A DNA stretch of 64,000 nt, taken from contig NC_022247.1 in NCBI RefSeq assembly GCF_000463015.1, positions 4,650,001 through 4,714,000 of the forward strand. The letters run 5' to 3'. The position numbers and the translations under genes were made by a program. Every line of letters starts with the position of its first letter. Positions within the stretch are counted from its first letter, which is position 1. Shown here one piece after another: positions 12,850 to 52,541 of the stretch. This DNA comes from Variovorax paradoxus B4 (GTDB lineage Bacteria > Pseudomonadota > Gammaproteobacteria > Burkholderiales > Burkholderiaceae_C). The notes beneath the pieces are model-generated. The model was not told the origin of the DNA. It saw only the letters and a list, made by a program, of their open reading frames with translations, and ran no database searches.

Positions 12850-14597
12850 TGGCGACCATTTCAAGGCGTGCCTACGCTGAAATCTTCGGCCCCACCGTGG
12901 GCGACCGCGTCCGTCTTGCGGACACCAACCTGCTGATCGAAGTCGAGGCCGACTACACGCTGCGCGCCGGCGGCTACGGCGAAGAGGTGAAGTTCGGCGG
13001 CGGCAAGACCATCCGCGATGGCATGGCGCAGTCGCAGCGCACTCGCGCACAGGGAGCCGTCGACACCGTGCTGACCAACGCGCTGATCCTCGACCACTGG
13101 GGCATCGTGAAGGCCGACATCGGCTTGAAGGACGGCCGCATCGCCGCCGTCGGCAAGGCCGGCAATCCCGACGTGCAGCCGGGCGTGGACATCGTCATCG
13201 GACCGGGCACCGAGATCATCAGCTGCGAGGGCAACATCGTCACGGCCGGCGGCATCGACAGCCACATCCACTTCATCTGCCCGCAGCAGATCGAGGAGGC
13301 GCTCGCCTCCGGCATCACCACCATGCTGGGCGGCGGCACCGGCCCCGCCACCGGCACCTTCGCGACCACCGCCACCCCCGGCCCCTGGCACATCGAACGC
13401 ATGCTGCAGGCCGCCGATGCGTTCCCGATGAACCTGGGCTTCCTCGGCAAGGGCAATGCGAGCCTTCCCGATGCGCTGCACGAGCAGATCGAAGCCGGCG
13501 TCATCGGGCTCAAGCTGCACGAAGACTGGGGCACCACGCCTTCGGCCATCAGCAACTGTCTGGACGTGGCCGACGCCACCGACACGCAGGTGGCGATCCA
13601 CAGCGACACGCTCAACGAATCGGGCTTCGTCGAGAACACCATCGCCGCCGTGGGCGGCCGCGCGATCTGCGCCTTCCACACCGAAGGCGCGGGCGGCGGC
13701 CATGCGCCCGACATCCTGCGCGTGGTGGGCGAGGAGAACTTCCTGCCCTCCTCCACCAACCCCACCATGCCCTACACGGTGAACACGCTCGACGAACACG
13801 TCGACATGCTCATGGTGTGCCATCACCTGGACGCCGGCATTGCCGAGGACCTGGCCTTTGCCGAGTCTCGCATCCGCAAGGAAACCATTGCCGCCGAAGA
13901 CGTGCTGCACGACCTGGGCGCGATCAGCATGTTCAGTTCCGACAGCCAGGCCATGGGCCGCGTCGGCGAAGTGGTGCTGCGCTGCTGGCAGACGGCGCAC
14001 AAGATGAAACTGCAGCGCGGCTGGCTGCCACCCGCGCCCGGTACGGGTGCGGACTCGCTGGACAACAACGAGCGCAACGACAACTTCCGCGCCAAGCGCT
14101 ACGTGGCCAAGTACACGATCAACCCCGCCATCTCGCACGGCATCGCGCACGAGGTGGGCTCGATCGAGGTCGGCAAGTGGGCCGACCTCGTGATCTGGAA
14201 ACCCGCCTTCTTCGGCGTGAAGCCCTTCACCCTCATCAAGGGCGGCACCATCGCGATGGCCGCCATGGGCGACCCCAACGCGTCGATTCCCACGCCGCAG
14301 CCGGTGCACTACCGGCCGATGTTCGGCAGCTACGGCGGCTCGCTGGCCAGGAGCTCGCTGACCTTCGTCTCGCAGGCCGGGCTGGCCGCAGGCATCAAGG
14401 AGCGCTACGGCCTTTCGAAGCACCTCAGCGCGGTGAAGAACATCCGCAACGTGCGCAAGAAGGACCTGATCCACAACGGCTACACGCCGAAGATGGAGAT
14501 CGATGCGCAGACCTATGCGGTGCGTGCCGACGGGCATCTGCTGACCTGCGATCCGGCGGTGCAGCTGCCGCTGACGCAGCGGTATTTCCTGTTCTGA
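12849..14597 (+). CDS. ureC: Urease alpha (catalytic) subunit
   Basis: 582 residues. All nickel-site residues are visible: H139 and H141 in SHIHF, the carbamylated lysine K222 in [10 protein letters not shown]251 in IHSDT, H277 in AFHTEG, the flap C324-H325 in MVCHHLD and D365 in FSSDSQAMG. It is about ten residues longer than typical UreC. The extra residues sit near 393-410 ([19 protein letters not shown]), where most homologues have a shorter loop before [13 protein letters not shown]. This is probably a surface loop without effect on catalysis. The operon is broken immediately after this gene by the antisense toxin-antitoxin pair. Confidence 0.98.
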
Positions 14598-45568: not shown

Positions 45569-46387
45569 GAGGGTGGGGGTCAGGGCACGGCGGGGGTATG
45601 CCGGGCATTGTGATGAAGCCAGCAGCGGTGGAGGGGCCCAACGCTCGTTTTGCACAGTTAGTTATGACTGATATGTAATACCAAATGTGTACAACTTTGC
45701 TCCGCGCCGCCTCCAGGCCCACGCATCACAGAGGGCGAGTTCTCCACCATTGCGGTGGATAAGACGGTGGAAAAGCCTGTGCGCAGGCCGGGAGAGCGTT
45801 GCTATGCCTGGGTCGCGACACTGCGCCTGTAAAAGCGGCACCACATCCCCGGGCACCTGCCGCTGGGCGCACAGTTTTTCCGTCGCCATACCTGTCCTTG
45901 GCGAATGACCGCCAGAAGATCCATCCAATCGAGCGGTCGGAATTAGAGCTGAATCATCGACCACCAATGGCTAAAAGAGATGGATGAGATCGGGTTGTAG
46001 AAATGATGGCCGAAATACGCATAACTTCTGCTGGTGGCCGCGGGAACGCACTGCTGCAAATTCCCGAATTTGATCGTCTTCAAGCGCGTCGCCTTTGCCG
46101 AACTCAGACGGACGCATCCCCAATGAAAAAGTCCCGTCGCATGAACTGCGCGGGACTTCAAGAAACTGCCAAAGATGGATTCTGGCGGAGAGTGTGGGAG
46201 CAATTTTTGTATCTGAATCAATATCTTAGTCTCAGAATACCATGATAGATGCCACGCCTTGAGTTTCGCTAGATGCTCTGTAGGCACTTCGTGCGGAGAC
46301 TGGAGACTCGCTCACAAGCAGATGGTGACTGCCGGTGATAGCAGAGACACCGAGTCCGCTCGTTTTGCTCCTCGACTATGACACCGC
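45569..46387. other. Gene-poor boundary between core genome and island
   Basis: 819 bp with no recognisable gene. Base composition changes from GC-rich to AT-richer within it, near 45.65 and again near 46.0 kb, so an insertion junction probably lies here. I looked for a tRNA gene or an integrase and saw neither. A terminator-like hairpin lies at 46126-46158. Confidence 0.6.
46126..46158 (-). terminator. Rho-independent terminator downstream of the RT-protease gene
   Basis: Read leftward: AAGTCCCG, a 14-base loop, CGGGACTT, then TTT (five T in all, counting the two in the stem). It is an intrinsic terminator about 230 bp after the RT-protease stop, in the direction of its transcription, and probably ends the island operon. 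Confidence 0.65.
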
Positions 46388-48148
46388 TCACAAAGCGGTT
46401 AGCCATCGATCCAATTCCATGACACAGAGGCACTCATCATTGCCACTCGATTGAGACGCTCCCTGCTGCGCTACGCCGGCCAATTTATACGAACTATCAA
46501 CGAGCGGTCCACCGGAATTTCCTTGGCGGATCGTTTGTCCAATTTCGAGCCGCTGCAATCCGGCTCTAGCAAAGCGATGCTGAACAGAAACCTCTGTATT
46601 ATTCGCCGTCCGCCCAGGAGTCCAATTAGGAAATCCAATTAATCGGGCTTGGGCCGAACGCTCCAACGGTTCAGGGCGGCCATCGAAATATCGCTGTGCA
46701 CGAGTCTCAGAATCAACAAATTCTAGGAGCGCCAAATCTCGCGCCGAGTCTCGATTCAGCACTCGCGCAGGAGAAACCGTACCAGTCAGAGGGTTTCTCA
46801 ATACTATTGAGACGTTCTGGACGAATGGATTCGAAATATCAATTTCTTCATCCTTTGATTGTCCCGTAAGTACATGATTGCATGTAATGAATCTGCGCCC
46901 TGTTCCGTACGCAAATGCTGTACCCTGCGACACTAATGGTTCCGACTCGTCCGTGCCAGGGGCGGTGTAGTCACCACTCCATTCTAGAACGAAAGTCGCG
47001 AAATCAACATCCAGCGTGTTTCTGACTTGAAGATCTATCGGTAACGAAGCACCTCGAAATCCTGGATCGATCGTTTGATGCAGCCGGCAAAGATGATTGT
47101 ATTTCTCAGCCAATCGTGTGTATAGCAGGTCATCATTTCCTCGGATCATTCGAACGAATAAGAGCCGCCCCCACAAAACATTCTGCAACGATGGGATGTT
47201 GCCTGTGCGGGTCTGACGTGCCCAAGGCCGTTCTCGCGGGGGATTTTTTAGCTTCTCAGTGATCCGCGCTGTCCAAGTTGCTTGAGCGGCAACATAACCG
47301 TGCGCTTCCCATGCATGCAAGGCACCTCTAATTTTGTCTATAAACTTTCGGGTGACATTGGGAAATTCATTGACCACAACACCTGTAATTTCCATGCGCC
47401 GTAGACGAGTGGAGATTCGTGTCTTTCCCTCGTTTATGTGAAATGAGTTTGATTCGATTATCGATCTAAGCTCACTCCCAATGCTTACCGTCCCTCCATC
47501 AAACGCAACAACATTTGCAGGCAGACGTTCAGCGCTGCGATGAGAAAAGCTAAAGGTCAAATCATCTGCATAGCGCGTATACGTTGCTCTATGCCTTTTG
47601 GATAATAAGGTCAGTTGCGAATCAAGTGTGCGACAAATCAGATTGGCGAGAAAAGGGGAGGTCGGAGCCCCTTGCGGCAACGAACCTTCATGCGTGCAAA
47701 GGTGCGCAAGCATCGTAGCCATCTCAAAGGAAAACTTCATGGGGGGCGCCATGAGCGCACCTCGGACGCGAAAAAAGGTGATTGTCGGAAAGAAATCGGA
47801 CAAATCTAGATTCAAAATGTGATACGGCCGACGCTCTAAGTGCTTCTCCGCGTTAGTGAGGATGCTGCGCCCCTCGACAAAGCCATGCACACATGGTTTA
47901 GCCGGGGGCACGGTTCCTTTTAAATACGCGAGCGCCCGATATTGGAGCGCTTTTATCTTCTTGCTCGGCTCCGCGATATGACGATTTTTACCATTCGCCT
48001 TGGCGATCACGAAATTCGTGTACCGAGGAGTAGGATAAAGGAGGCCTTCAATTTTCCAATATTCAGCCCCAAAGATGTGCCGCGAGAAATAAGGCACGTC
48101 TGCTCGGAGCAGAAAGTCATGAAATTCGTTTTTACCGAGTATTGCCAT
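46388..48148 (-). CDS. Retron-type reverse transcriptase fused to a trypsin-like serine protease
   Basis: 586 residues. The RT occupies about 1-330: the LNLDLSDFFP catalytic aspartate, SLPQGAPTSPFLANL, and YADD at 193-196. Two retron-specific features are present: NAxxH (N99-A-E-K-H103) and a VTG-like ITGVVVNE at 254. From about 395 the chain becomes a chymotrypsin-fold protease with the whole triad visible: H425 in ITCNHVL, D471 in ARDLALLEF and S545 in RQGNSGGPLV. In retrons the RT makes a branched RNA-DNA (msDNA) and keeps a toxic effector quiet until phage infection; here the effector is presumably the protease. The start codon lies 11 bp after a candidate msr-msd RNA. AT-richer than its neighbours, hence probably acquired. 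Confidence 0.93.
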   Translation of the reverse strand: MAILGKNEFHDFLLRADVPYFSRHIFGAEYWKIEGLLYPTPRYTNFVIAKANGKNRHIAEPSKKIKALQYRALAYLKGTVPPAKPCVHGFVEGRSILTNAEKHLERRPYHILNLDLSDFFPTITFFRVRGALMAPPMKFSFEMATMLAHLCTHEGSLPQGAPTSPFLANLICRTLDSQLTLLSKRHRATYTRYADDLTFSFSHRSAERLPANVVAFDGGTVSIGSELRSIIESNSFHINEGKTRISTRLRRMEITGVVVNEFPNVTRKFIDKIRGALHAWEAHGYVAAQATWTARITEKLKNPPRERPWARQTRTGNIPSLQNVLWGRLLFVRMIRGNDDLLYTRLAEKYNHLCRLHQTIDPGFRGASLPIDLQVRNTLDVDFATFVLEWSGDYTAPGTDESEPLVSQGTAFAYGTGRRFITCNHVLTGQSKDEEIDISNPFVQNVSIVLRNPLTGTVSPARVLNRDSARDLALLEFVDSETRAQRYFDGRPEPLERSAQARLIGFPNWTPGRTANNTEVSVQHRFARAGLQRLEIGQTIRQGNSGGPLVDSSYKLAGVAQQGASQSSGNDECLCVMELDRWLTAL

Positions 48149-48159
48149 TCCGATAAGGT

Positions 48160-48291
48160 GCCGCCTCGGTATCTTTCACCTTTACGACCAGCGATAATAT
48201 TGGCGAATACGTTAGGATCGACCAGCATCGGGGTTACCATGCTGCAATGCCTGCGTTAACGCGGGCAAGATTAAGTCTCTGCCGAGGCGGC
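48160..48291 (-). ncRNA. Candidate retron msr-msd RNA
   Basis: Directly upstream of the RT. The arms GCCGCCTCGG (5', 48291-48282) and CCGAGGCGGC (3', 48169-48160) are perfectly complementary over ten bases and enclose 112 nt, like the a1/a2 arms of known retrons; the 3' arm ends 11 bp before the RT start. Within it are two short hairpins suited to an msr: GCC-C-GCGTTAACGC-A-GGC (48249-48266) and CAGCAT-N10-ATGCTG (48223-48244). A long msd stem is not obvious in the remaining 53 nt, which is the weak point. A 77-codon open frame from 48240 crosses it and is probably chance. Confidence 0.5.
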
Positions 48292-48366
48292 CCACAAAGT
48301 GTAGCCATGTTTCTGACGTGAAACTACAATTTCCAAAGGCTCGCCCCGGGGGGATACCCGCGGTTT

Positions 48367-48436: not shown

Positions 48437-49024
48437 TTATGCGTCACGTTCGGGCGTATGTTTCGACGGCACTGTGGGCACTTCCCCGCCCCCCGCGTCC
48501 TTCACATCGGCCTTCAGCCGACCGGCGATAGCAAACATTCCATTTCGCACCCGCGTAGTCGCGTCTTCACGATCAGCGTATGACTTAATCAAGCTTGCGG
48601 GCACTAACGATAAAATCACGGTCCACAGCTGCCAAATAGTGAGAGCAACTAGTAGCGCGTACGAAATCCCCCTCGCAAGACTTGGATCAAAAGGAAGGGG
48701 ATACTTCTTCGCAACCGGTGCAACCGCACCCAAGATTAAGATGACACAAAGGATCGCCGTGGAATTTACCACCGGAGTGAACAACTGCCCCATCCCGCTC
48801 GAATTTCCCTGCTCGGCCTGATCGGGATTTCGCATAGAGAGCTTCAAGCGTTCGGGATAAATAATCGCCATCCATGCACCGATTACCGCGAAGATAATTG
48901 CCGCCGTAGTTCGAAGAGCTTCGAACATCGGCCACTGCTCCGCAAAAGGCACAACTCGGCCAAACCATCCAGCAGCGGCAACAAGTGCGACGACAATTGA
49001 CCAGCCGAGTGTCTTTTGTATCAT
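48437..49024 (-). CDS. Four-helix membrane protein in the retron operon
   Basis: 195 residues from the ATG at 49024 (MIQKTLGWSIVVALVAAAGW). Four hydrophobic helices at about 7-24, 41-59, 84-104 and 119-141, and a cytoplasmic C-terminal tail of some 50 charged residues (SYADREDATTRVRNGMF). Lies 13 bp downstream of the 341-residue gene and upstream of the candidate retron RNA, all leftward. No family recognised. Small membrane proteins of this shape often act as pore-forming effectors in phage defence; that role is inference. Confidence 0.75.
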   Translation of the reverse strand: MIQKTLGWSIVVALVAAAGWFGRVVPFAEQWPMFEALRTTAAIIFAVIGAWMAIIYPERLKLSMRNPDQAEQGNSSGMGQLFTPVVNSTAILCVILILGAVAPVAKKYPLPFDPSLARGISYALLVALTIWQLWTVILSLVPASLIKSYADREDATTRVRNGMFAIAGRLKADVKDAGGGEVPTVPSKHTPERDA

Positions 49025-49037
49025 GCGACTTATCGGG

Positions 49038-50063
49038 CTATTCGTTAGCCCGTCCAAGCATATAACGCCGATGCCCCTGCAATGCCGAAAGCAACGAATT
49101 CGGCTCAATTATTTCTGCATCTTTTCTATCAATATCGACCCAGAGCGCATCCTTAACAAAGGCGTGATCGAGCCAATATGTGTTGTTGCTTTCGCCGCGC
49201 AGGTCGAAACCGTAATTGTTGTCCTCTTGTTCCTCCTGCGCCCATTCCGCCACAATACCCCTCAGGGCGAGGGGGGAAAGACCGTCGACTTCGACTGAGT
49301 AATTGACTTTGACTTCGTGCGGTCGAGCATTCGGCGCGGTGAGGTGCAACTGATCTAGCATCTTTTCCCAAAGTGCACGCTTTGGTCGTTCTTCCAATAA
49401 TAGATTCGCCCGCTTGGTGATTTTCCTAATTCTGTCAGTTCTTTCGAGCAAAAAATCTATGGGACCAGCCTTGCGCAACAATTCAGATTTGAAGCGAGGT
49501 CTAAAGCGGGTTAATGCGGCAGCATCATTCTCTCGATACCCGAGCACTTGAACTTCCCCATCGTCACCAAGTTCCTCTCCCACCACGACGTGCGGCGAGA
49601 ATTGGCTCATAAATCCGTGCAGGTATTTATTCATCTGATAGTGCCCAGCGGACGAATGCTGAAAACGCACAGTTGCGACTAGGCCTTCATTTGGCATAAA
49701 CCAAAAATAGGTCGCAAAGCCGGGGATTGCTCCCGCCTCAAATTCATTCATGGTCACGTCAGCATCACCCACCTGACCGTAGCCGTCAATCGACGCCACT
49801 GCGCCATCGGTACTCTCTATCTCATTCCAGAGCGTAAGTAACCAATCCCCTCGCCGCTCGTGAACGTTAACCAAATAGGCAGGTAGCTTCGATTCATCAC
49901 CATCGAAGGTTTTGGTAAGTCCTAGTTGTTTTCCTTGACCCCAGCGATTCAAATCGCGAAGCGTCTCAACGACATCGCCAAATTCAGGTGCATGGTTGAC
50001 GCCCCATCTAAAATAGCCGCATGCTTTTAACTTTAGCAATGTGACTCGTGCTTCCTCTCGCAT
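49038..50063 (-). CDS. Unknown 341-residue protein in the retron operon
   Basis: Starts MREEARVTLLKLKACGYFRW with GGGAG eight bases upstream. Mixed alpha/beta, soluble, no signal or transmembrane helix. Noticeable stretches are FEAGAIPGFATYFWFMPNEG, YLHGFMSQFSPHVVVGEELG and a basic helix LLERTDRIRKITKRANLLLE. No catalytic motif recognised. It is tightly linked (13 bp) to the four-helix membrane protein, so the two probably act together, as sensor and effector for example. AT-rich codon use like the RT gene. Confidence 0.75.
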   Translation of the reverse strand: MREEARVTLLKLKACGYFRWGVNHAPEFGDVVETLRDLNRWGQGKQLGLTKTFDGDESKLPAYLVNVHERRGDWLLTLWNEIESTDGAVASIDGYGQVGDADVTMNEFEAGAIPGFATYFWFMPNEGLVATVRFQHSSAGHYQMNKYLHGFMSQFSPHVVVGEELGDDGEVQVLGYRENDAAALTRFRPRFKSELLRKAGPIDFLLERTDRIRKITKRANLLLEERPKRALWEKMLDQLHLTAPNARPHEVKVNYSVEVDGLSPLALRGIVAEWAQEEQEDNNYGFDLRGESNNTYWLDHAFVKDALWVDIDRKDAEIIEPNSLLSALQGHRRYMLGRANE

Positions 50064-50215
50064 GCCGGACGCTCCCGCATCTGTTTATGTTGCAAGGCTT
50101 GTAACACGATGTCATAAAAAACTACTAGGTAGTTTCCTTCTGTCTTCCTGTTCGCCGAGAGCCTTTGCTTCCATTTACGCTGAAGCGCCTCGTCGCTCAG
50201 CTTCGATACCTTCAT
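50033..50215 (-). CDS. Small basic protein overlapping the 341-residue gene
   Basis: 60 residues, MKVSKLSDEALQRKWKQRLS to HESHC, helical and basic. It overlaps the start of the 341-residue gene by 31 bp, as is common for coupled genes. The Shine-Dalgarno is weak (ACGAG). It may be real or chance. Confidence 0.4.
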   Translation of the reverse strand: MKVSKLSDEALQRKWKQRLSANRKTEGNYLVVFYDIVLQALQHKQMRERPACERKHESHC

Positions 50216-50432
50216 GCTCGTCTTGCCGTCTGCCTCGCAGGACGCGGCGCCAGTGTAGGAGAGCTATCGTCAGCGAGAAGCGTAAAAAACGACTGCGCCG
50301 CATCTTCGGGGCCTTCCCGCTGATTTTTCTCCGAGCCATGGTTGACGCCGCGACAACAGCGAGAAGAATCATGGCAGCGAACCCCAAAAAACTTGCCTGG
50401 GTCGCAAGTTGATCGCATTCAACGAGCCGCAT
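50175..50432 (-). CDS. Possible small single-helix membrane protein
   Basis: 85 residues from the ATG at 50432 (MRLVECDQLATQASFLG). One hydrophobic helix (FLGFAAMILLAVVAASTMA) is followed by a very basic tail (RRKISGKAPKMRRSRFLRF). It overlaps the 60-residue frame in a different reading frame. There is no family, so the call is weak. Confidence 0.28.
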   Translation of the reverse strand: MRLVECDQLATQASFLGFAAMILLAVVAASTMARRKISGKAPKMRRSRFLRFSLTIALLHWRRVLRGRRQDEHEGIEAERRGASA

Positions 50433-50625
50433 GAAGTGCGCTAATGGACTGAGTCCCTGTGATGTTCGGAGACGCAGCACGCGCGGGTGAGAGTTGTTTG
50501 CAACTCAGGTGATGCCGTCCGCGCTTATCTTGCCGAGATGCGCAGACGATCCGTTCCGGTGCGACCTGCGCAGGGTAGCCATCTGCAAAATTCGCGATGG
50601 TTTGCTAGGCGTGAATCGCCCGCTG

Positions 50626-51642
50626 TTAGCTCTTGTAGAAGTGCCCCTTGACGTGGTGCTTCTTGAACTCCATGAGATCCGGGCAGCCAGCCCTGTGAAT
50701 CGCACGGTGGCAGTTGCTGCAAAGCACCATGAAGTCGGCTTCAGTCGGTTTGAGAATAGCGCCCGTATCTGGCAGGGTTGAAATCGGCACATTGTGATGA
50801 GCCTCGATGAACTTTTCCATCAGGGATCCATATGCGCTAGCAAAGTCGAAGTGGCAGGCCTGGCACTCAACACCAAGTTGCTTTTTCACTCGCTCGATTA
50901 GCTTTCTATCCCGATGTCTCCTCTCAATCTGCTTATGCACAATCACTTTCTTGGCGCCATCCAGGGACCCGGACGGCAGCTCGCCCGCGGCACTGAGAGT
51001 CGAAAGCTCCTCGTCTTCCTCCGAGAACTTCAGAATGCGTTGCTCGGCCATCGCGTCATAGAGTTGAAGCATCGCACGCAGATCCGCGACCAGTTCTGCA
51101 TCCTCAGGAAGTGCGGACACCGCATACCGCTTTCCAAATGCGGCTGTGTTCGACCACGGGTCAGCTGCATAGTCGCGCTGGTTCGCAGTGGTCACGAACT
51201 TGAGCGTTGTAAACGGCCCCTCATTGAATCCTTGCTCACGCCAGCGGCCACCATTCGCACGCATCTGCTGAGCTCTAAGCGCCAATTCAACCCCGGCGCG
51301 CTTTCGCCCAACGGCGTCGGTGAGCTGCTGCGCCCCCTGTCCCATGACAAGGCACACCGTCTGAAATCCAGGTTCAAAGAGATATACAGGGTAAAAGCCG
51401 CCCATGGCGCTCTTAGTGACGGTATGTAAGAGAACAGCCAACCACGGGGCCGCAGACCATTGCCCTTGTCCAGGGCTCCCAACAAATTGATAGCGCTCGG
51501 CATCTCGCCCACCCAGAGAGTCGCGCAACGAAGACGGCCAGCTCTGACGAATCAATGCTGCGAGCGGATGGTTCGCGAGCGGTTCCGTCCTAGCGCGCTG
51601 AAAGCCTTGCGCGATTTCGCGAAGGTGATCTCCGAACCCCAT
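50626..51642 (-). CDS. MrcB-like N-terminal domain plus HNH endonuclease (type IV restriction-like)
   Basis: 338 residues. The N-terminal half resembles the MrcB/DUF3578 domain of modification-dependent restriction proteins (YQFVGSPGQGQWSAAPWLAV, GFYPVYLFEPGFQTVCLVMG). A basic linker (RRHRDRKLIERVKKQLG) leads to the HNH nuclease: CQACHFDF, KFIEAHHNVPIS and VLCSNCHRAIHR, with the zinc cysteines and the catalytic histidines. Enzymes of this design cut DNA with modified bases, such as phage DNA. AAGGAG is well placed before the ATG at 51642. No methyltransferase is nearby, as expected of type IV. Confidence 0.85.
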   Translation of the reverse strand: MGFGDHLREIAQGFQRARTEPLANHPLAALIRQSWPSSLRDSLGGRDAERYQFVGSPGQGQWSAAPWLAVLLHTVTKSAMGGFYPVYLFEPGFQTVCLVMGQGAQQLTDAVGRKRAGVELALRAQQMRANGGRWREQGFNEGPFTTLKFVTTANQRDYAADPWSNTAAFGKRYAVSALPEDAELVADLRAMLQLYDAMAEQRILKFSEEDEELSTLSAAGELPSGSLDGAKKVIVHKQIERRHRDRKLIERVKKQLGVECQACHFDFASAYGSLMEKFIEAHHNVPISTLPDTGAILKPTEADFMVLCSNCHRAIHRAGCPDLMEFKKHHVKGHFYKS

Positions 51643-51762
51643 GGGGTCTCCTTACGGCATCATGCCTGGCTTGAATATAGCCCCATGGATTTAAATAGAA
51701 TCGACGCGAACCGACCGCGGCTCTAAGGGGTGCTGGTGTTCCCTTTGGCGTATGCTCTCCAT

Positions 51763-52143
51763 ATGGCCCAAAGCCCTAAACTGAGCAAAACCAAAACGCC
51801 CCGGACCACCCCTGAAGAGGCGGTGGCCCGATATGCCCTGATGGACCGCGCCATCAGGCAAACGGGATTTCACATCGACGAGTTGGAATCGGCTCTCGGC
51901 ATGTACATGGTCGGCTTTCATTTCGGCTGGCGTGTGCTGTACCTGGTTCACAGCAAGCGCACGATCAAGAAGTACGAGAGCATCTTGGGCCTCAAGATCA
52001 GCGAGGTATTTCCCGAGTACGGTCCGGACGCGGATCGAACGAACGCCTACAAGCTCATTCAGAGTGTTTCCAACTTCTGGAAGCTCGTCTCCGGCGACGA
52101 AAAACCAACACTCCAGATCGACAAGCGCTCCTTAGCCGAGTAA
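51763..52143 (+). CDS. Hypothetical protein at the island/prophage border
   Basis: 126 residues, MAQSPKLSKTKTPRTTPEEA onward, soluble and helical with GMYMVGFHFGWRVLYLVHSK and YESILGLKISEVFPEYGPDA. I do not recognise the family. It is on the plus strand, opposite to the surrounding genes, with intermediate base composition. A start at 51730 would add eleven residues. Position suggests a phage or island accessory gene. Confidence 0.6.
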   Translation: MAQSPKLSKTKTPRTTPEEAVARYALMDRAIRQTGFHIDELESALGMYMVGFHFGWRVLYLVHSKRTIKKYESILGLKISEVFPEYGPDADRTNAYKLIQSVSNFWKLVSGDEKPTLQIDKRSLAE

Positions 52144-52229
52144 GGGAACTACAGGTCCCTTGACAGGAACATCATATCCCCTTCCAATAGGGGCCTTGAC
52201 GTTCCCTTATTCCAACAAAGGAGTGATTC

Positions 52230-52541
52230 ATGACATGGCTGTTCATTCAGATGATCGACAGGCCCAAAACGGTGATGTTCTGGGGCAGGCTATTCGTTAA
52301 CGTAGGCGGCCTCGCGTGCATCGCTGGCCTTTGGGGGCAGCTGGCCGTTAAGGCAACCTCAGAACTAAGCCATCCAGGGCCTGCATCGCCGCCGACTCGC
52401 ACTTTGGCCGAGCTCTACCCGAGTCTGCCGATCTGGTGGATTCCCGAAAGCGCATTCGGCTATGCGCTCGCTATAGGCGTGGCGGCGCTTGGTATTTGGC
52501 TCGTCACTGCCACAAAGCGCATGAACCGTTCGTTTCGCTAG
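52230..52541 (+). CDS. Small two-helix membrane protein at the prophage end
   Basis: 103 residues, MTWLFIQMIDRPKTVMFWGR, with helices at about 17-40 and 76-93 and a periplasmic or extracytoplasmic Pro-rich loop. AAAGGAG lies seven bases before the ATG at 52230. On the plus strand, convergent with the prophage lysis genes. Such small membrane proteins at the end of late operons are sometimes lysogenic-conversion or superinfection-exclusion genes; that is speculation. Confidence 0.6.
   Translation: MTWLFIQMIDRPKTVMFWGRLFVNVGGLACIAGLWGQLAVKATSELSHPGPASPPTRTLAELYPSLPIWWIPESAFGYALAIGVAALGIWLVTATKRMNRSFR

Follow-up and report, generated by a model that had tools for sequence, protein, structure and literature searches.

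Does a gene in which a reverse transcriptase (RT) runs on into a trypsin-like protease belong to a retron, and, if so, is the protease its effector? This question is raised by a locus in a 64,000-nucleotide stretch of Variovorax paradoxus B4 DNA (contig NC_022247.1, positions 4,650,001 to 4,714,000), which we refer to as the window and from whose first nucleotide all coordinates are counted. The fusion gene lies at 46388..48148 on the minus strand and is preceded, on the same strand, by a candidate msr-msd non-coding RNA (ncRNA) at 48160..48291. As judged by comparison with relatives, the two almost certainly form a retron of type XI, and because the protein matches RT-Protease_XI models in PADLOC (E 4.6e-159), we take the locus to be a further representative of a retron type that is known but little studied.

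The reverse transcriptase and the fused protease

The initial annotation described the product of the gene, which starts at an ATG codon, as a single chain of 586 residues with an RT followed by a trypsin-like protease, and both the open reading frame (ORF) list and Pfam agreed. RVT_1 matched residues 48 to 258 (47375..48007, minus strand; E 7e-17), and Trypsin_2 matched residues 409 to 559 (46472..46924, minus strand; E 2.3e-13). The motif residues that had been named were found in place, namely N99, A100, and H103 of NAxxH, Y193 to D196 of YADD, and I254-T255-G256 as the VTG-like motif of the RT, together with the protease triad H425, D471, and S545, the last within GNSGGP.

We followed these residues through two sets of relatives. 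The first comprised 28 loci with fused RT-proteases, chosen among 174 loci by length and a GxSGG motif; this choice missed L043, whose protease was revealed by Pfam and which stands outside the residue and inverted-repeat counts of the 28. The second comprised the best 120 of at least 6644 proteins found at E ≤ 0.001 among 8000 candidates scored in a protein database search, with 47 to 93% identity and both Pfam domains in every one. The triad was invariant throughout (28 of 28 loci and 120 of 120 homologues). YADD was present in all 28 loci, and its Y, D, and D were invariant in the 120 homologues, 117 of which had A at position 194. N99 and H103 were kept in all of the loci and in all 118 homologue rows with letters there, T255 was kept in every member of both sets, and A100 and G256 were each found in 26 of the 28 loci. 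From this conservation, the active sites of both the RT and the protease look intact. Between the protease part (residues 405 to 586) and that of a 74%-identical relative (L184), nonsynonymous divergence (dN) was 0.28, and synonymous divergence (dS), close to saturation, was 2.1. Over the RT half, and over the gene taken as a whole, dS was saturated.

A search with the protease part found 70 relatives, of which 63 also carried RVT_1; it took in only proteins of about 320 to 1025 amino acids, so small free-standing proteases could not appear. A single-protein search of genome contigs gave no relative, and two further single-protein scans of viral contigs gave no new locus (one returned the L091 contig again, the other nothing), whereas an alignment-based search gave 80 loci.

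The claim that the RT is of the retron kind was borne out. The best PADLOC matches were two RT-Protease_XI models (528.6 bits for the first; E 1.9e-158 for the second), covering residues 24 to 584, and the next, among the best 25 of 59 families, were RT-TIR_XII and RT-Toprim_I-C, with matches to the RT part only. In NCBIfam, the retron TIR, Ec67, and St85 models matched below their cut-offs, the group II RT model reached 51.2 bits against a cut-off of 300, and the Drt2 and Drt3a models reached 31 bits against cut-offs of 200 to 390. The solved structures nearest by sequence were retron RTs, led by Ec67/Eco2 (E 1.6e-38) and followed by Ec86 and others, whereas the best group II RT among them ranked far lower (E 2.8e-5). 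No family named for diversity-generating retroelements (DGRs) occurred among those from PADLOC (best 25 of 59), Pfam, and NCBIfam. Assignment to the group II intron or DGR classes was rejected on the score of 51.2 bits and the lack of a listed DGR match. By its sequence, then, the gene encodes a retron-clade RT with NAxxH, VTG-like, and YxDD motifs intact.

Type numbers of this kind reportedly originate with Mestre et al. in 2020. The locus resembles type XI in being a single-gene fusion of an RT to a trypsin-like serine protease with a conserved triad, and we found no essential difference from that type. Type XII, the next-best PADLOC type (E 7.4e-103), matched over the RT part only (residues 40 to 355), and its effector is a TIR domain where here there is a protease. 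RT-protease retrons are already a known kind, since they are in PADLOC and are named in a survey sentence within the available part of a retron paper (PMC12405507). The annotation's description of a sparsely studied type fits the literature search, which returned this survey mention and, among the matches listed, no experimental study of type XI or RT-protease retrons, most subscription journals lying outside the literature searched. A paper matched to "retron type XI" in Variovorax concerns type XIII, to go by the part of it available, and was set aside. What the present locus appears to add to type XI is a covarying ncRNA for one subfamily, a position at a prophage edge, and an indication that RT-proteases are not one RT clade.

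The RNA upstream of the fusion gene

The proposed geometry of the msr-msd candidate was correct: two 10-nt arms, a1 (GCCGCCTCGG, 48282..48291) and a2 (CCGAGGCGGC, 48160..48169), enclose 112 nt, and 11 nt separate the end of a2 from the ATG codon, giving an RNA of ~132 nt from a1 to a2 (all features of the RNA are on the minus strand). By themselves the arms are unremarkable in such G+C-rich DNA, since an equal or better inverted repeat occurred in 3 of 40 dinucleotide shuffles and in 30 of 60 stretches taken elsewhere in the window. Two checks had been suggested for this RNA. Folding (48149-48300) gave a z score of -1.70, with 9 of 200 shuffles folding equally well or better, and was not significant alone; a covariance-model search, together with covariation, upheld the candidate and found the 48160-48291 arms kept in homologues. 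We therefore rejected judging the arms on the single sequence, where neither the fold nor the shuffle and control tests were significant. Rfam gave the RNA no match at its gathering scores and nothing noteworthy when the limit was relaxed to E 5.

Similar RNAs precede the RT in four relatives, L171 (74% protein identity), L091 (51%), L096 (49%), and L011 (45%), and share a common order of a1, ACUUAAUC, hairpin, GGUAACCCCGA, variable stretch, purine-rich element, and a2. ACUUAAUC (48269-48276) stands ahead of the msr hairpin and is shared among the five aligned loci. The hairpin (48248..48267) has a UUAA loop, lengthened to UUUAA in L011, and a mismatch position that is C-A in four of the five loci; two-sided changes were seen at 3 of its 8 positions. 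The element GGUAACCCCGA (48228..48238; alignment A2) differs by two letters in L011 and by one letter each, at its start, in L171 and L096. The purine-rich element AAAGGUGAAAGA (48172..48183; alignment A2), several letters of which vary, lies just before a2; by analogy with known retrons, the template for reverse transcription is predicted to start there. In 4 of the 5 close loci, a GATC falls in the interval from the first hairpin to a2, a weak lead toward methylation as a trigger.

Because MAFFT placed the 3' arm wrongly, for L091 in alignment A2 and for both L091 and L011 in alignment A3, we counted pairs on motif-located arms and on a model-fitted alignment. On the motif-located arms of the five loci, 49 of 50 a1/a2 cells held standard pairs, and 5 of the 10 pairs showed two-sided changes. 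In the model alignment of six rows, pairing held in 96.8% of 94 cells, compared with 82.1% in shuffles, and the proportion fell to 30.0-46.5% when partners were slid by 1 to 3 columns. Two-sided changes occurred at 9 of 17 pairs, and the covariation score was reached by none of 500 shuffles; the number of further pair types was not unusual (81 of 500 shuffles). Because the six-row alignment was fitted to the structure, the count on motif-located arms is the cleaner one. Their conservation with compensatory change in homologues indicates that the arms are more than chance.

A covariance model built from the five loci, the window included (R1), found those five again in a search of 92 sources, at E values of 1.9e-31 to 3.8e-18. 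The sole further match below 0.05 was at L093 (E 0.028), a locus outside the model, where it lay immediately ahead of the start of an RT-protease with 33% identity; a seventh match, on the opposite strand of L171 (E 0.81), looks like chance. All five close loci therefore have an upstream ncRNA with inverted a1/a2 ends. Among 101 genomes of the genus, an RT-protease was found in two (E ≤ 1e-60), and the RNA, searched for at E ≤ 0.01 and with stricter filters than the protein, occurred in the same two, once each, at the retron. Among the collected loci, a DNA pattern written for the RNA hit L011 alone. A second pattern, run on viral contigs, hit nine loci. Two of these, L176 and L183, are the retrons already represented by L096 and L091, respectively; in the remaining seven, both the a1/a2 layout and an RT frame were absent from the stretch examined. 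A blastn search of plasmids with the RNA found nothing.

Beyond this subfamily, the best inverted repeat upstream of the RT (spans of 95 to 164) had a median score of 12.0 in the 28 fused loci, compared with 9.0 in 1680 control stretches taken elsewhere in the same sequences, 60 per locus, the start of distant loci having been set from the RT domain. Fifteen loci exceeded the 95th percentile of the controls (11.8), and in 12 the repeat outscored every one of the 60 controls from that locus (Mann-Whitney p 3e-14, for loci that are not independent). Arms of the retron form could be seen by eye in 26 of the 28 loci; in L171 and L011, the top-scoring repeat differs from the a1/a2 pair. Arm pairs had changed on both sides at 5 of 16 positions among four loci of an alphaproteobacterial clade, at 2 of 10 among three loci of a Pseudomonas clade, and at 0 of 14 and 1 of 19 in two further pairs of loci; the arms of L037, L098, L025, and L094 were located and left out of these counts.

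Several observations weigh against reading the locus and its distant relatives as retrons. Thirteen of the 28 fused loci had no repeat above the controls' 95th percentile, and in two of the 28, L059 and L028, no arms were seen by eye. L099, a near-twin of L093, gave no match at E ≤ 1 when searched with R1. Between a1 and CUUAA, where a branching G was looked for, alignment A2 has no column with G in all five sequences, and the msd is short and weakly conserved.

The protease as effector

Most retron effectors studied to date are nucleases, enzymes acting on NAD or nucleotides, or membrane proteins. Going by its place in the protein, the protease is probably the effector of this retron. A Pfam scan of 20 fused or C-terminally extended RTs found, in the same C-terminal place, TIR in four (L032, L040, L060, and L061), Schlafen/AlbA_2 in two (L013 and L058), an Mrr_cat endonuclease domain in two (L020 and L029), and a protease in two (L028 and L043), while 10 had no second domain above the Pfam cut-off. 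Since sister RTs carry TIR, Schlafen/AlbA, or Mrr there, these results suggest that the C-terminal place serves as a slot for interchangeable effectors.

An RT tree of 151 rows grouped the window with L171, L091, L096, and L011 (Shimodaira-Hasegawa-like approximate likelihood ratio test [SH-aLRT] support, 100). RT-proteases required 8 changes on this tree, or 9 once L043 was relabelled, in a count that is blind to gain versus loss. A single clade for all 29 RT-proteases was rejected by the approximately unbiased test (p-AU 2.64e-09), a value to be read with caution in that the tree was a quick one with long branches and L043 was added after the tree had been seen. With that caution, RT-protease retrons appear not to be one RT clade, and, given the domains of the sister RTs, the protease would belong to a set of effectors that have replaced one another on a single RT scaffold. 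At E ≤ 1e-90, 3 of 399 genomes sampled from the order and 4 of 399 sampled from the family, the window's own genome included, had an RT-Protease_XI match. Apart from that genome, the matches covered the RT part of the profile only (to about position 307 of 510) and had no GxSGG in frame, and the tree placed them among RTs with other C-terminal ends.

The nearest well-described comparison is Eco2 (Ec67), with which the locus shares a retron-clade RT (match over residues 41 to 281), inverted repeats in the ncRNA, and an effector fused at the C terminus, which in Eco2 is a Toprim RNase and here a protease. In the available part of the Eco2 paper, the system is a self-inhibited trimer of msDNA (multicopy single-stranded DNA), RT, and effector, the Toprim part is toxic by itself but the full-length protein is not, msDNA is proposed by the authors as the restraint, and the phage nuclease DenB is implicated as the trigger (PMC12405507). 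By the same logic, msDNA would hold back the protease here until a phage product released it.

Because no shared partner was found and other domains follow the sister RTs, we favor a model in which the protease would be a self-contained effector restrained by msDNA. For its steps, we infer msDNA synthesis, restraint, a trigger, toxicity, and a substrate as follows. The RT would bind the msr, prime there, and copy the msd into msDNA, and the resulting RNA-DNA-protein complex would keep the trypsin-like protease at the C terminus switched off. The trigger would be a phage product acting on the msDNA or its RNA by cutting, modification, or binding; the protease, once freed, would cleave one or more host or phage proteins, so that growth would stop before phage release. 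Given that no shared partner was found, the simplest reading is that the protease cleaves host or phage proteins directly and needs no dedicated partner, and we consider this reading evenly balanced between right and wrong. The fuller proposal, partnerless proteolytic killing in which msDNA directly restrains the fused protease and its release leads to cleavage of a defined set of proteins, is plausible but falls slightly short of that; if true, it would be the first such case among retrons. A retron with a protease as its effector would extend msDNA-controlled immunity to proteolysis, in a way comparable to caspase-like defenses. The locus would be a compact test object, with one gene and an RNA of ~132 nt in ~1.9 kb, intact active-site residues, and mapped boundaries.

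Against this model, processing of the RT, or activation of a factor encoded elsewhere, would be an equally possible role for the protease. In the available part of a study of Avs, Lamassu, Hachiman, and defense-associated RT (DRT) systems, a trypsin-like protease is fused to the antiviral protein and paired with a metallo-β-lactamase (MBL) nuclease (PMC12799240). The protease of this retron might likewise cut and switch on a separate proenzyme upon infection, an explanation that we regard as unlikely. In those pairs the nuclease gene lies beside the protease, whereas here no family was common to at least 3 of 28 sources near the retron (27 loci plus 16 kb of the window), in a comparison in which several flanks were short and ORFs of less than 70 amino acids were omitted, so that a distant or small partner could escape. 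Besides antisense shadows of the RT gene, the sole three-locus cluster was a response regulator encoded well away from the RT. An integrase neighbor is common to L091 and L096, and the two Variovorax-group loci differ in their neighbors. An obligate MBL-nuclease partner was rejected, since there is no shared neighbor family and Pfam gave no MBL match in the five neighboring ORFs of 48437-52541.

A less probable alternative is that the protease acts on the retron protein itself, releasing or destroying the RT as a timer or a processing step, with the toxic step elsewhere. In its favor are the union of the RT and the protease in one chain and the RVT_1 domain in 63 of the 70 protease relatives found within the size range searched. 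The sister RTs, however, bear TIR, AlbA, or Mrr in the same place, domains not expected to process an RT, and with no shared neighbor encoded, self-processing would leave the system without an effector. That the gene is no retron at all, its RT being of another class (group II intron, DGR, or DRT) and its inverted repeat fortuitous, is very improbable and in large part refuted, for although the repeat alone is not significant and the RNA has no Rfam match, RT-Protease_XI outscores the group II and Drt models by far (528.6 versus 51.2 and 31 bits, the latter two below their cut-offs) and the RNA has been kept in relatives, with compensatory changes.

The prophage setting and other genes

A 78-bp repeat at 46119..46196, interpreted as a prophage attachment repeat, lies 191 bp beyond the stop codon of the retron gene. 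An exact copy is found 44.7 kb away (L188:6823-6900), beside a tyrosine integrase gene, where it overlaps the last 14 nt of a tRNA-Ser gene, and endolysin and tail genes lie between the two copies. These flanking repeats, the integrase, the tRNA-Ser, and the phage genes place the retron as the outermost recognized gene at one end of a prophage of ~44.8 kb. This position, next to the candidate defense genes described below, counts in favor of the model. The 74%-identical relative, for its part, lies in an island of ~3.6 kb (L184:7046-10711) between a tRNA-Asp gene and a 47-bp copy of its 3' end; the island contains the retron and one gene for a 322-amino-acid protein, with no integrase recognized among its listed ORFs.

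The same prophage carries other genes that may serve in defense. Directly upstream of the retron RNA (48437-50063, minus strand) is a PADLOC candidate defense pair, PDC-M18B (E 2e-76) and PDC-M18A (E 2.3e-116). A cargo gene at 50626-51642 (minus strand) encodes a protein with MrcB_N and an HNH-like end just below the Pfam cut-off, possibly a restriction enzyme. Beside the integrase gene (L188:3845-5518, minus strand) is a gene for a 557-amino-acid protein with a C-terminal T5orf172/MUG113 domain (GIY-YIG-like), which matches the PADLOC candidate PDC-S57. A 1204-amino-acid SIR2_2 protein (L187:8838-12452, minus strand) matches Dsr2 (E 7.2e-131), and its gene adjoins terminase-like and portal-like ORFs, labels given by reading the translations. 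Elsewhere in the window, the sole Rfam match was the 5' ureB small RNA at 13010-13299 on the minus strand (105.5 bits).
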